Positions 35,766-41,339 of a DNA stretch of 64,000 bases are shown here, piece after piece. The stretch spans positions 62,001-126,000 of the forward strand of contig JAGWON010000003.1 of NCBI GenBank assembly GCA_028871055.1. The letters are read 5' to 3'. Position 1 is the first letter of the stretch. Every line of letters begins with the position of its first letter. Below the pieces are notes generated by a model. The model had not been told where the DNA came from. It made no database searches and was given only the letters and a program-made list of their open reading frames with translations. Source of the stretch: Alphaproteobacteria bacterium (GTDB lineage Bacteria > Pseudomonadota > Alphaproteobacteria > ATCC43930 > CGMCC-115725). The position numbers were made by a program, and so were the translations under genes.

Positions 35766-35779
35766 TTGATGTAAATCAA
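35766..35779 (+). promoter_or_regulatory. FNR/FixK box, perfect consensus
   Basis: TTGATGTAAATCAA, an exact TTGAT-N4-ATCAA. Its centre is about 59 bases before the ATG at 35832. With activation at -41.5, transcription would start near 35814 and leave an 18-base leader that still contains the ribosome site, a good fit. Confidence 0.85.
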
Positions 35780-36988: not shown

Positions 36989-37002
36989 TTGATCTAGGTC
37001 AA
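36989..37002 (+). promoter_or_regulatory. FNR/FixK-type box ahead of the usp'-2OG-hemN operon
   Basis: TTGATCTAGGTCAA; one base off TTGAT-N4-ATCAA. Centre 36995.5 predicts a start near 37037, a 29-base leader before the ATG at 37066. A weaker site, TTGCGTTGAATCAA at 36892-36905, lies about 100 bases upstream. Confidence 0.75.
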
Positions 37003-37065
37003 TGCGGGAGTTGGCTAGAGTTCGTAAATTGAAGATTCGTGCAATCGTTTCGACCGGAGCTTAGC

Positions 37066-37348
37066 ATGTACGGAATTCTCGTTGCGACCGACGGCTCGAA
37101 AAATTCGGACTGTGCGACCGACGTAGCTGCCGACCTGGCGAAAAAAACGGATTGCGACCTGCTGCTGGTGAACGTCGCGCATCAGCCGCCCCGCGCCGGT
37201 TATAGTGCCGAAGACCTCTACCCCCGAGCTGAAGGCCTTGATGGAGGCGGAGCGAATCGCAGACGGCGAGACCAGTCGCGAAGAGGCGGCGCGCACGCGG
37301 ACCTGCGTCAATTCGTCCCCGCGTCCCCCGAAGTCATTGATCCTATGA
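37066..37348 (+). pseudogene. UspA remnant, frameshifted and truncated
   Basis: The frame from the ATG at 37066 is a clear universal-stress-protein start: MYGILVATDGSKNSDCATDV, AADLAKKTDCDLLLVNVAHQ. After EDLY it leaves homology, but a shift of one base (an extra T near 37219) restores TPELKALMEAERIADGETSR then EEAARTRT before unrelated residues and a stop at 37348. The C-terminal half with the ATP-binding G-x2-G-x9-GS motif is missing. The gene cannot give a working Usp. It is the first gene behind an FNR box, and an intact uspA is at 43259. Confidence 0.75.
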
Positions 37349-37353
37349 TCAAT
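37336..37353. promoter_or_regulatory. Inverted repeat just upstream of the first 2OG oxygenase gene
   Basis: ATTGATC, CTAT, GATCAAT: seven perfect base pairs around four bases, ending 19 bases before the ATG at 37373. It resembles an FNR box but the half-sites TTGAT and ATCAA are six, not four, bases apart. It may be another operator or an RNA hairpin near the ribosome site. Confidence 0.4.
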
Positions 37354-37372
37354 TTAATGAAGGAGAGCCCCG

Positions 37373-38053
37373 ATGCCCGATCACTCGGACCGTGAACGCA
37401 CGTTTGCGCTGCTCGACGAGGCGGCGATTGCCGCCGCCGAATTGCGCCGTGATCCCTATGATTTCGCCTTCGTCGAGCACGCCATCGCGCCGCGTTATAA
37501 GGACGAAGTCCTGGCCGATGCTCCGCCGATTCCCGACCGCGGAAGCTACGGTCTGCCCGATCTCAGGTACGGGCCGAGGTTCGGCGACGCCGTCCGCGAC
37601 CTCCTGAGTCCGCGCTTTCGCCGTCTCGTCGAGCGCAAGTTCGATACCGATCTGAGCGCCTACCCGCCGGTCATCGTGATGATGGGCAACACCACCGGCC
37701 ACTACAACGAGGGCTATGCCCATCCCGATTCCAAACATAAGATCATCACCGTCCTGGTCGGCTTCACCCGCGAATGGCCTTACGAACGCGGCCGGCTTCG
37801 GGTGCTGCGCAGCTCCGACCGCGAGGACTTCGCCTTCGAGTTCGCGCCAGAGTTCGGGCGGATGCTGATGTTCCGCGTCTGCGATCACTCCTGGCACGGC
37901 TTCCTGCCCCAGAAGGGCCAGCGCATGAGCCTACAGCTCTGCTACGTCGATTCGGATTGGTATGTTCGCCGCGAATATTGGCGTCACAGCGTCAGCGCCT
38001 TCGCCAAATCGGTGCCCCTCCTGCGCAAGGCGATCGAATGGGCGCCGCGGTGA
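37373..38053 (+). CDS. 2OG-Fe(II) oxygenase, first of a pair
   Basis: A 226-aa protein of the 2-oxoglutarate/Fe(II) dioxygenase superfamily, prolyl-hydroxylase-like. The iron site is visible as H-x-D in GYAHPDSKHK, a distal His in CDHSWHGFLP and the 2OG-binding Arg in GQRMSLQLCY. The N-terminal 80 residues show no known domain. AAGGAG precedes the ATG. Substrate unknown; small molecules, sugars or protein side chains are all possible. The stop overlaps the start region of the second oxygenase, so the two are coupled and may act in sequence. Confidence 0.8.
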   Translation: MPDHSDRERTFALLDEAAIAAAELRRDPYDFAFVEHAIAPRYKDEVLADAPPIPDRGSYGLPDLRYGPRFGDAVRDLLSPRFRRLVERKFDTDLSAYPPVIVMMGNTTGHYNEGYAHPDSKHKIITVLVGFTREWPYERGRLRVLRSSDREDFAFEFAPEFGRMLMFRVCDHSWHGFLPQKGQRMSLQLCYVDSDWYVRREYWRHSVSAFAKSVPLLRKAIEWAPR

Positions 38054-38769
38054 CCGCCAGCGCGGCGCGGCCGGCGCCGGCACGCGCAGCGGTCGATTTT
38101 CCCCGCATCCCTGACGCGGCCGCCATTGCCACGCATTTCAGTCAGGCGCTGCGCAATGCCCGCCGCGACGACGCGCCTTATCGCCATTGGTCGTTGAGCG
38201 CCATGCTGCCCGAAAGCCTTGCCGTCGGTGTGCTTTTGTTGCCGATCGCGCCGCCGGTGGTCGGCGACAACCAGGGTGTGCGCGACCGCGACAACGGCAA
38301 GCGAACCTTCTTCACGCCGCTGCTGCGGACGCGTTTTCCGGCCTGCGCGCAATTTGCCGAGGCGATGCAGCGCCCCGATGTCGCGCGGCTGTTCGAGGAG
38401 GTGTGCGGGATCAAGGTCGCCGGCGGCTTCTTGCGCATGGAATACATCCAGGACACCGACGGCGCCTGGCTCGAGCCGCACCGCGATATTCCGGAAAAGC
38501 TTTTCTCGATGGTGATCTATCTTTGCACCGGGCCCGAGGCGAAGGACTGGGGTACCGACATCTACGACGAGCAAAAGCGGTGGATCGGCCGCACCTCGGC
38601 CGAATTCAACAGTGCGGTGATCTTCGTGCCCGGCCCGAACACCTGGCACGGCTTCGAGCGCCGCCCGATCATCGGCGTGCGCCGCCTCATGGAAATCAAC
38701 TATGTCCGGCCGAGTTGGCGCGACCGCGATCAGATCGCCTTCCCGGATCGACCGATCGCGCCAGCGTAG
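38038..38769 (+). CDS. 2OG-Fe(II) oxygenase, second of a pair
   Basis: A 243-aa protein, different from its neighbour but with the same fold. It has H-x-D in LEPHRDIPEKLFSMVIYL, GTDIYDE, the distal His in PGPNTWHGFERR and an Arg in VRRLMEINYV. The ATG at 38038 overlaps the end of the first oxygenase by 16 bases; a GTG at 38050 overlapping its TGA is an alternative. LEPHRD and NTWHGF are the pattern of oxygenases that act on sugars or small molecules in polymer and natural-product pathways, but this is only suggestive. Part of the operon ending with hemN. Confidence 0.82.
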   Translation: MGAAVTASAARPAPARAAVDFPRIPDAAAIATHFSQALRNARRDDAPYRHWSLSAMLPESLAVGVLLLPIAPPVVGDNQGVRDRDNGKRTFFTPLLRTRFPACAQFAEAMQRPDVARLFEEVCGIKVAGGFLRMEYIQDTDGAWLEPHRDIPEKLFSMVIYLCTGPEAKDWGTDIYDEQKRWIGRTSAEFNSAVIFVPGPNTWHGFERRPIIGVRRLMEINYVRPSWRDRDQIAFPDRPIAPA

Positions 38770-38782
38770 AGAGACGATTTCC

Positions 38783-39976
38783 GTGCGCGGTTTCGAGTCC
38801 AGGGAATGGCAGACCGCCCAGGCCGCTCGCGGCTTTGCGACGCGAAGCTTTTACGGCACGAAGGGCGGTGCCGAGCATTTCATCGCCGTCGCGATGCCGT
38901 CGGAGATGGACTTCGGCCAGCAGATCGATGCGGTGCGGGAGCGCTACGAGGCGGCGCGACGCTCCCTCGAGTTGGCGCCGGAAACCGCCGTGTTTCGCCG
39001 GATCTTCCTGAGCGATGTCCTGAATCAGGCGACGGCGGTGCGCAACAGCGCTTTGGCCCGCGATCCGGGCGACGGCGATGCCGCCGTCTCGATCGTGCAG
39101 CAGCCGCCCCTGGCCGGCGCCAAGCTCGCGCTGCTCGCGTACCACATCGACGGCGGTAGTCCGCTGCTCAGGCGCCGTCTCTCGCCCCGGCACCTGATCA
39201 TCGAGAAAAACGGCCGACGACATTTGTGGAGCACGCGTCTGTGTGCCGACGACCACGAAACGTCCGGCTCTTCGGCCGCACAGACCCGGTCGGTATTCGG
39301 CGACCTGGTCAAGACCCTCGAAAACCAGGGCGCCAACCTGCGCGACCACTGCATCCGCACCTGGATCTATCTCAAGGACGTCGACGTGTTTTACCAGGGG
39401 ATGGTCGACAGCCGGCGCGAGATGTTTGTCCGGCAGGGGCTGACTCGCGACACGCATTTCATCGCCAGCACCGGTATCGAAGGTGCCTGCGCGCATCGCT
39501 TCGATCTGGTCGCCATGGATGCGTATTCCATCCTCGACTTGGTTCCGGAACAGGTTTCCTATTTGAACGACTTCAACCGGCTCTGCCCAACGGCCGATTA
39601 CAACGTCACGTTCGAGCGCGGCACGCGCGTGGGCTATGCCGACCGGGCGCATCATTTCATTTCGGGAACGGCCAGCATCGACGACGCCGGCAATGTTCTC
39701 TATCCCGGCGACGTGCTGCGCCAGCTCGACCGCGCCCTCGGCAACGTCGACGCCCTGCTGCACTCGGGAGCGGCGACCCTTGCCGACATGATGTATCTCC
39801 TCGTCTATCTCCGCGACCCGACCGATTATGCGCACGTCGACGCGCATCTCCGCGAGCACTTTCCCGGCTTGCCGGCGCTGATCGTCCAGGGCGCCGTCTG
39901 CCGGCCGGATTGGCTCGTCGAAATCGAAGGCGTAGCGGTAACGCCCAACGACGAGCCGGCTCTGCCGCCGTTCTGA
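38783..39976 (+). CDS. Rid/YjgF-family protein with chorismatase-like architecture
   Basis: A 397-aa cytoplasmic protein from the GTG at 38783 (GAGAGA upstream). The C-terminal half is a Rid domain: HHFISGTASIDDAGNVLYPG, DVLRQLDRALGNVDALLHSG, YLLVYLRDPTDYAHV and the end VQGAVCRPDWLVEIEGVAV. The middle contains GDLVKTLENQGANLRDHCIR and TWIYLKDVD, a second Rid-like unit. Such multi-unit proteins include the chorismatases FkbO, Hyg5 and XanB2, and also enamine deaminases. I cannot tell which activity it has. It sits between two 2OG oxygenases and hemN, with gaps of only 13 and 7 bases, as one operon. Confidence 0.72.
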   Translation: MRGFESREWQTAQAARGFATRSFYGTKGGAEHFIAVAMPSEMDFGQQIDAVRERYEAARRSLELAPETAVFRRIFLSDVLNQATAVRNSALARDPGDGDAAVSIVQQPPLAGAKLALLAYHIDGGSPLLRRRLSPRHLIIEKNGRRHLWSTRLCADDHETSGSSAAQTRSVFGDLVKTLENQGANLRDHCIRTWIYLKDVDVFYQGMVDSRREMFVRQGLTRDTHFIASTGIEGACAHRFDLVAMDAYSILDLVPEQVSYLNDFNRLCPTADYNVTFERGTRVGYADRAHHFISGTASIDDAGNVLYPGDVLRQLDRALGNVDALLHSGAATLADMMYLLVYLRDPTDYAHVDAHLREHFPGLPALIVQGAVCRPDWLVEIEGVAVTPNDEPALPPF

Positions 39977-39983
39977 GGGCCCG

Positions 39984-41339
39984 ATGGTGACCGCGCTATC
40001 GCCCGCCTTGCAGCATGTCGCCGCCGAACGCTTGCCGCGCTATACGAGCTATCCGACGGCGCCGCTGTTCACTCCGGCGGTCGACGCCGGCGTCGCACGC
40101 GACTGGCTCGGCGCACTCGATCCGGCCGCCACGGCGTCGCTCTATCTTCACGTGCCCTATTGCCGGGCGCTCTGCTGGTACTGCGGTTGTCATACCAAGA
40201 TACCGGCGGATGATGCGGCGATCGGCCGCTACGTCGACACGCTCATTACCGAGCTCGACATGGTAGCGGCGGCGCTTCCGGCGTCCTTGCGAACGACCCA
40301 CCTCCATTGGGGCGGCGGCACACCGACCATCGTTGGCCCGTCCGCCATGCAGCGCGTACTGGCGGCGATCAGGCGCGATTTTCCCCTTGAACCGGGAGCG
40401 GAACTGGCCATCGAGGTCGATCCACGGATGTTGACGCCCGAGATGGCCAAGACGCTCGGCGCGTGCGGTTTCACGCGCGCGAGCATCGGCGTGCAGACCT
40501 TCGATCCGGCCGTACAACGCGCCATCCATCGCATCCAGAGCGCCGAGGTCACCGAAGAAGCGGCCCGACAGCTGCGTGCCGCAGGTATCGGCGCGCTCAA
40601 CGTCGACCTGATCTACGGCCTGCCGCACCAGACGATCGCGTCGTGCGTCGGCACGGCCGAGCGCGTCCTCGCGTTCGAACCCGACCGCGTCGCCGTCTTC
40701 GGCTATGCGCACGTACCATCGCTGAAGCCGCATCAGCGGCGCCTCGACGAGTCGGCGCTGCCCGACGCCACGGCGCGGTTCGGCCAGGCTGAAGCGATCG
40801 CCGAGACGTTCGTCGCCGCCGGCTATCGGCGGATCGGGCTCGATCATTTCGCCAGAACCGGCGACGGCCTCGTGAAGGCGCTCGATGCGGGACGGTTGCG
40901 GCGGAATTTCCAGGGTTACACGACGGACCAGGCGGACGTATTGCTCGGATTCGGCGCGTCCGCGATCGGCCGGCTGCCGCAGGGTTATCTCCAGAATACG
41001 CCGCGGATCGGCGCTTATCAGGACGCGATCGCGTCTGGACGCTTGGCCACCGTTCGCGGCCTCGCGCTCACCGCCGAGGACCGGCTCCGCGCCGCGGTCA
41101 TCGAACGGTTGATGTGCGATCTGATCGTGGACCTGGAGACGGTTGCCGCGACGCACTTTCCCGGTTTCGATTTCAGCCGCGAGCGCGCGATCCTCGACGA
41201 CCTGGAGGAAGAAGGCCTCGTGCGAATCGCCGGGACGTGCATCGCCGTGCCCGAAGTCATGCGGCCATTCGTGCGCCGCGTGGCCGCGGTCTTCGACGCG
41301 TCGCACAGCGCGACGGCGACCCACGCACCGGCGGTCTGA
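39984..41339 (+). CDS. hemN: Oxygen-independent coproporphyrinogen III dehydrogenase (HemN)
   Basis: Radical-SAM enzyme (451 aa) that decarboxylates coproporphyrinogen III to protoporphyrinogen IX without oxygen, needed for haem synthesis under low oxygen. It has the early pattern LPRYTSYPTAPLF, the cluster motif CRALCWYCGC (C-x3-C-x2-C), WGGGTPTIVG and GVQTFDPAVQRAIHRIQ, and the C-terminal HemN domain. Full length for HemN rather than the shorter HemW, and it keeps the following Cys of CGC. It ends the operon that begins behind the FNR box at 36989, matching the known FNR/FixK control of hemN in relatives. Confidence 0.95.
   Translation: MVTALSPALQHVAAERLPRYTSYPTAPLFTPAVDAGVARDWLGALDPAATASLYLHVPYCRALCWYCGCHTKIPADDAAIGRYVDTLITELDMVAAALPASLRTTHLHWGGGTPTIVGPSAMQRVLAAIRRDFPLEPGAELAIEVDPRMLTPEMAKTLGACGFTRASIGVQTFDPAVQRAIHRIQSAEVTEEAARQLRAAGIGALNVDLIYGLPHQTIASCVGTAERVLAFEPDRVAVFGYAHVPSLKPHQRRLDESALPDATARFGQAEAIAETFVAAGYRRIGLDHFARTGDGLVKALDAGRLRRNFQGYTTDQADVLLGFGASAIGRLPQGYLQNTPRIGAYQDAIASGRLATVRGLALTAEDRLRAAVIERLMCDLIVDLETVAATHFPGFDFSRERAILDDLEEEGLVRIAGTCIAVPEVMRPFVRRVAAVFDASHSATATHAPAV

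Follow-up and report, generated by a model that had tools for sequence, protein, structure and literature searches.

In a 64,000-nucleotide stretch of contig JAGWON010000003.1 from an alphaproteobacterial genome (the whole stretch is referred to here as the window), we analyzed a row of closely spaced genes encoding two Fe(II)- and 2-oxoglutarate (2OG)-dependent oxygenases, denoted OxyA and OxyB, a Rid-like protein and the oxygen-independent enzyme HemN. We propose, with a probability of about 35%, that OxyA, OxyB and the Rid-like protein constitute a mobile, FNR-activated, low-oxygen biosynthetic unit that would turn chorismate into a hydroxybenzoate-like ring and hydroxylate it for quinone or other aromatic chemistry. 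The support seen at the sequence level comprises a recurrent gene cluster, FNR-type boxes, a chorismatase fold with its Cys/Glu motif, intact oxygenase sites and a tie to the ubiTUV genes; from these we infer a substrate, a product, a timing and a link to ubiquinone. The features of the region are as follows.

36989..37002, + strand: FNR-type box TTGATCTAGGTCAA, with one mismatch to TTGATnnnnATCAA; probable promoter element of the operon
37066..37395, + strand: usp remnant, the frameshifted N-terminal part of a universal stress protein
37337..37354, + strand: short palindromic, AT-rich element TTGATCCTATGATCAATT, just 5' of the OxyA ribosome-binding site and conserved in locus L069
37373..38053, + strand: OxyA, Fe(II)/2OG oxygenase, 226 amino acids, overlapping usp
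38050..38769, + strand: OxyB, second Fe(II)/2OG oxygenase, 239 amino acids, GTG start, overlapping the OxyA stop
38783..39976, + strand: Rid-like gene, 397 amino acids, predicted full-length chorismatase fold, GTG start
39984..41339, + strand: hemN, oxygen-independent coproporphyrinogen III oxidase

The gene order and tight spacing given in the initial annotation were reproduced, with overlaps of 23 bases (usp and OxyA) and 4 bases (OxyA and OxyB) followed by gaps of 13 bases (OxyB to Rid-like) and 7 bases (Rid-like to hemN), all on one strand; no terminator-like sites were found between 36900 and 41500 of the window. HemN scored 392 bits against TIGR00538 (cut-off 325) and carries the radical-SAM CxxxCxxC motif as CRALCWYC. 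The Pfam Usp match of the usp remnant is confined to residues 4-69 of 109, with a frame shift midway. In the window, 384 bases separate the box at 36989 from OxyA. We place usp outside the core unit, as incidental in the window, because usp is missing from the interval between box and OxyA, 190 bases long, in the same-genus loci L022 and L069.

The three genes that precede hemN, initially described as a small unit, are conserved as such elsewhere. A locus scan queried with OxyB peptides, and hence biased to close relatives, yielded 30 loci at one genome per species; two of these (L022 and L051) belong to the genus of the window and were set aside, leaving 28. Rid adjoined the oxygenases in 25 of these 28 other-species loci (tblastn), in either of two orders, OxyA-OxyB-Rid or Rid-OxyA-OxyB; at one locus (L028), OxyB and Rid were present with no OxyA match by tblastn beside them. 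Many of the loci are contigs of metagenome-assembled genomes, and absence of a gene from a partial genome is weak evidence. Records with the unit include Sulfuriferula (Betaproteobacteria), gammaproteobacterial metagenome-assembled genomes, and Acidocella and Acidicaldus (Alphaproteobacteria). In a tree of the concatenated proteins, the alphaproteobacterial sequences are intermingled with gamma- and betaproteobacterial ones and the gene order switches more than once, a pattern that suggests horizontal transfer as a unit; the pairwise distances of OxyA, OxyB and Rid correlate at 0.61-0.71. The question whether hemN is always attached was answered in the negative: attachment immediately 3' of the unit is confined to the genus of the window (the window, L022 and L051), and elsewhere hemN is separate, divergent or missing. 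A nearby and usually divergent hemN occurs in L031, L036, L044 and L048; in L056, hemN is immediately followed by distant relatives of OxyA/OxyB. We regard hemN as a predicted lineage-specific member of the operon, not a constant one.

Two further records touch on the distribution of the unit. A same-genus genome (G001) holds two OxyA-OxyB 5' ends (L068 and L069), both on contigs ending inside OxyB; one of them stands beside UbiTUV and the other in a context like that of the window. L044 comes from a record under the label Terriglobia; the triplet is present there, and UbiV is found in the same genome. Ubiquinone would be unexpected in Terriglobia, and the label or the binning may be wrong.

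Low-oxygen control by an FNR-type promoter, as first suggested for the window, finds a counterpart in the relatives. TTGATnnnnATCAA, with 0-1 mismatch, was found upstream in 24 of 45 related loci, compared with 0.58 expected from dinucleotide shuffles, and at least ten of those 24 operons have a perfect box; the scan covered 350 bases 5' of the gene and its first 60 bases, taking the first triplet gene or more distant OxyA/OxyB homologues. Judged by this upstream box, the unit is a putative member of the FNR regulon, and its predicted regulation and its linkage are well supported at the sequence level. In the window itself, 29 FNR-type sites with up to 2 mismatches were counted versus 9.0 expected (maximum 18 in 100 shuffles). 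No separate promoter was detected between usp and the oxygenases, where only the AT-rich palindromic element TTGATCCTATGATCAATT occurs; its half-sites are 6 apart and hence it is no canonical FNR box. A scan for sigma-70-like promoters returned a sole site, inside hemN, and is uninformative for an FNR promoter. FNR-like motifs within OxyB genes (for example at 8589 of L026) were judged coincidental; they encode conserved L-M-E-I-N residues.

FNR-type boxes also cluster elsewhere in the window (2860, 35766, 41376, 42461, 46563 and 46588). The box at 35766 is perfect (TTGATGTAAATCAA), the one at 2860 is upstream of a cydA-like gene (- strand), and others precede a Host_attach/baeRF gene and Hsp20 and BON genes. 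With these boxes, the region resembles a regulon for low-oxygen stress.

The Rid-like protein had been labelled chorismatase-like, and in its predicted structure the likeness extends over the full length of the chain. Its C-terminal third matches PF01042 (Ribonuc_L-PSP; 63.8 bits), and the N-terminal match to FkbO/Hyg5 is weak. The AlphaFold model (mean predicted local distance difference test score, pLDDT, 77) retrieved chorismatases with a Foldseek E-value of 2e-16 and was superimposed onto 4bps, 5a3k and 5ag3 with Z-scores of 27.5, 27.4 and 27.3 (root-mean-square deviation 3.1 over ~300 residues, nearly the whole length), whereas single-domain RidA proteins gave Z-scores of 11 or less. With FkbO, Hyg5 and XanB2 the protein shares, besides the fold, the motifs RTW...Y, TGI, SGTAS and C-R-x-x-L-V-E-x-E; it differs from them in sequence (~18-21% identity) and in its context of FNR box, 2OG oxygenases and UbiTUV. 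In the segment C373-R-P-D-W-L-V-E380-I-E382, of which C-R-P-x-W-L-x-E-x-E is invariant, C373 and E380 align with C327 and E334 of Hyg5, residues described as catalytic in the chorismatase literature, which makes C373 and E380 putative catalytic residues. The motif Cys is of the Hyg5 type, FkbO having an Ala there, and the Cys/Glu motif is also kept in homologues of 37-40% identity from Bacteroidota and a deltaproteobacterium. We retain the term chorismatase-like instead of chorismatase because the score against the curated FkbO/Hyg5 model TIGR04444 (38.1 bits) missed the cut-off of 325 by far; the protein would at most represent a separate subfamily. RidA/YjgF imine deaminases have the C-terminal PF01042 domain in common with it, but its chain is longer and matches chorismatases along its length. 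No conserved Arg was found in the Rid-like sequences at the position aligned with the RidA catalytic residue (Arg105 in E. coli RidA). A simple RidA deaminase identity was rejected on the predicted full-length chorismatase fold.

Both oxygenases look catalytically intact, in line with the identity first assigned to them. OxyA matched PF13640 (2OG-FeII_Oxy_3) with 30.8 bits (cut-off 27), and its iron triad and 2OG-binding Arg (H117-x-D119...H175...R184) are invariant in 22 aligned sequences. OxyB, with 20.5 bits, stayed below the same cut-off; its triad and Arg (H144-x-D146...H200...R211) are invariant in 27 sequences, and its AlphaFold model (pLDDT 89.6) has the double-stranded beta-helix. The best profile matches of both proteins, and the best fold match of OxyB, are PolD and PasI of the PF13640 group, which we take to have a polyoxin background: OxyA matched PolD (9blq) and PasI (9ei6) at 1e-14, and the OxyB model reached a Z-score of 18 (18.5 to PasI with Fe and 2OG). 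The identity to PolD and PasI by structure is 14-15%, and the pair in the window differs from them in lying outside a nucleoside-antibiotic cluster and with an FNR box. A literature search on the gene set, the Acidiphilium plasmids or the PasI/PolD entry codes returned nothing relevant.

Genome content ties the unit more strongly to oxygen-independent ubiquinone synthesis than to anaerobic DNA synthesis or strict anaerobiosis. UbiV was found in 25 of the 28 genomes reached via the loci, and in 24 of 25 where the locus holds Rid, compared with 65 of 199 genomes phylum-wide (binomial probability of the excess in Rid-locus genomes ~4e-11, in a test that ignores shared ancestry). Two of the three genomes that lack UbiV have OxyA-OxyB without Rid (L032 and L043); the remaining one is partial, with 1.6 Mb. 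Among 53 good relatives, UbiV occurred in all 6 with an OxyB match of at least 46% and in all 4 with Rid, shared ancestry again being ignored. We consider the ubiquinone tie the closer one because NrdD is present in only 18 of 29 triplet genomes and was not found in the window's own genome; in the latter, a different contig carries intact-looking UbiTUV frames, close to perfect FNR boxes.

The recurrent neighbours of the unit, named by sequence recognition and between-locus similarity (on plasmids by annotation), are the oxygen-independent enzymes UbiTUV, NrdDG, PdxST and HemN, which are oxygen-free substitutes for flavin hydroxylases, NrdAB, PdxH and HemF, respectively. In Acidocella (L040 and L041), an FNR box is followed by UbiT-UbiU-UbiV-Rid-OxyA-OxyB, head to tail on a single strand. 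OxyA-OxyB-Rid diverges from HemN-UbiVUT and an FNR-like regulator in L031, where CydA follows, and from PdxTS-NrdG-NrdD in L033, which also has a radical-SAM gene and UbiU-UbiV. L044 combines HemN, NrdD-NrdG and Rid-OxyA-OxyB, and L052 an FNR box, a PhyH-type 2OG oxygenase, an OxyB relative (46%) and UbiTUV, with no Rid. Six loci have NrdD and four have UbiU, the chance expectation for a single-copy gene being 0.08 in all 29 flanks together. The apparent paradox of oxygen users within a putative low-oxygen regulon is itself conserved. Plasmids of Acidiphilium cryptum, A. multivorum and Acidithiobacillus ferrooxidans carry UbiTUV-Rid-PdxST, joined by NrdDG in two of the three, and transposases accompany the plasmid locations of the unit. 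A. multivorum pACMV3 (L082 14160-15193) has a second Rid with a broken frame directly 5' of OxyA-OxyB, with its own perfect FNR box. The plasmid regions, each a perfect FNR box followed by the oxygen-independence kit, are:

L078 3399-12228
L079 4256-13085
L082 5243-15307

Another recurrent neighbour of the triplet, in most cases divergent from OxyA, is a fused lipoyl-ligase-like/DUF116 protein; its genes lie at:

L042 5437-7065
L037 2782-4374
L034 1-564
L033 10825-12405

A Parabacteroides Rid homologue (40%; L080 6225-8870) is flanked on one side by a cytochrome-like protein (weak match) and on the other by a hemerythrin-domain protein, a further oxygen-handling context.

According to our proposal, the Rid-like enzyme would split pyruvate off chorismate, or a close relative of it, to give a hydroxybenzoate-type ring, and OxyA and OxyB would hydroxylate that product or a derivative with the trace oxygen of micro-oxia. 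The product would then supply the pool of respiratory quinones, or some other aromatic cofactor, during shifts between oxygen respiration and anoxia, and hemN would have joined in the window's genus as another low-oxygen gene. The triplet shares operons or islands with the UbiTUV pathway in several species, as well as FNR-box control, and FNR activates ubiUV in E. coli (PMC10470549); the link between the two consists of co-occurrence and shared operons only. A narrower form, in which the chorismatase-derived ring and the two hydroxylating oxygenases make up a micro-oxic quinone or aromatic cofactor branch bridging the ranges of the flavin hydroxylases and of oxygen-free UbiUV, we consider unlikely.

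Several observations weigh against the proposed unit. E. coli UbiTUV makes ubiquinone without Rid or 2OG oxygenases (PMC6747719, PMC10470549). Nothing obvious is missing in the triplet genomes, since 27 of 29 retain aerobic ubiquinone hydroxylases (TIGR01988) and 11 of 29 have UbiC; the ideas that OxyA/OxyB stand in for lost aerobic hydroxylases, or that replacement of UbiC is the whole story, are weakened by the first and the second of these counts, respectively. Rid homologues occur in Bacteroidota, including on plasmids, and to our knowledge Bacteroidota have no ubiquinone. By their entry titles, PasI and PolD act on nucleoside-antibiotic sugar acids, not on aromatic rings, and in one Acidiphilium plasmid region Rid stands with UbiTUV-PdxST and no adjoining OxyA/OxyB.

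A separate metabolite pathway on the same island we regard as nearly as likely as the proposed unit: the genes would share FNR control and transfer within a mobile low-oxygen island, and would serve a small-molecule chemistry of their own, such as a siderophore-like or signalling hydroxybenzoate, unrelated to ubiquinone. Such an island would fit the varying neighbour sets, the plasmid sites with transposases, the secondary-metabolite nature of PolD/PasI-like oxygenases and the Bacteroidota plasmid homologues of Rid. It accounts less readily for a co-occurrence with UbiV (24 of 25) that exceeds that with NrdD (18 of 29), or for flanks that, the lipoyl-ligase-like gene excepted, have no recurrent cluster of synthetases, transporters or ligases. 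The Rid-like protein could also be the low-oxygen source of 4-hydroxybenzoate for ubiquinone, with the oxygenases acting separately. XanB2 is a precedent for such a UbiC stand-in in Xanthomonas (PMC5069965), Rid lies immediately 3' of ubiV in Acidocella and Acidiphilium, the window genome lacks UbiC, which turned up in just one of 81 genomes searched, and the chorismatase fold and motif would suit the role. Given that 11 of 29 triplet genomes also carry UbiC, that most relatives have neither UbiC nor Rid, and that Rid homologues exist in Bacteroidota, we think this improbable.

A slightly poorer prospect is that the two oxygenases act as oxygen-sensing protein hydroxylases, made in advance during anoxia and marking a target upon the return of oxygen, in the manner of PHD2 or the Pseudomonas EF-Tu prolyl hydroxylase. 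FNR control would agree with this, as would the OxyA profile match to PHD2 (~1e-4) and the Z-scores of 13-14 of the OxyB model to the EF-Tu hydroxylase (4iw3) and PHD2; PolD and PasI, both small-molecule hydroxylases, are nevertheless closer (1e-14 and Z 18), and a chorismatase-like partner suits small-molecule chemistry better. The idea that unrelated genes came to lie side by side by accident, behind an equally fortuitous FNR-like site, has nothing in its favour beyond the window itself and is already refuted for practical purposes, dozens of genomes having retained both the triplet and the box.

Two oxygen-consuming hydroxylases, conserved as a pair and apparently induced by oxygen shortage, suggest that a piece of low-oxygen metabolism is missing, and their association with a chorismate-type enzyme and with the genes for oxygen-free ubiquinone synthesis points to a low-oxygen pathway that has yet to be described.

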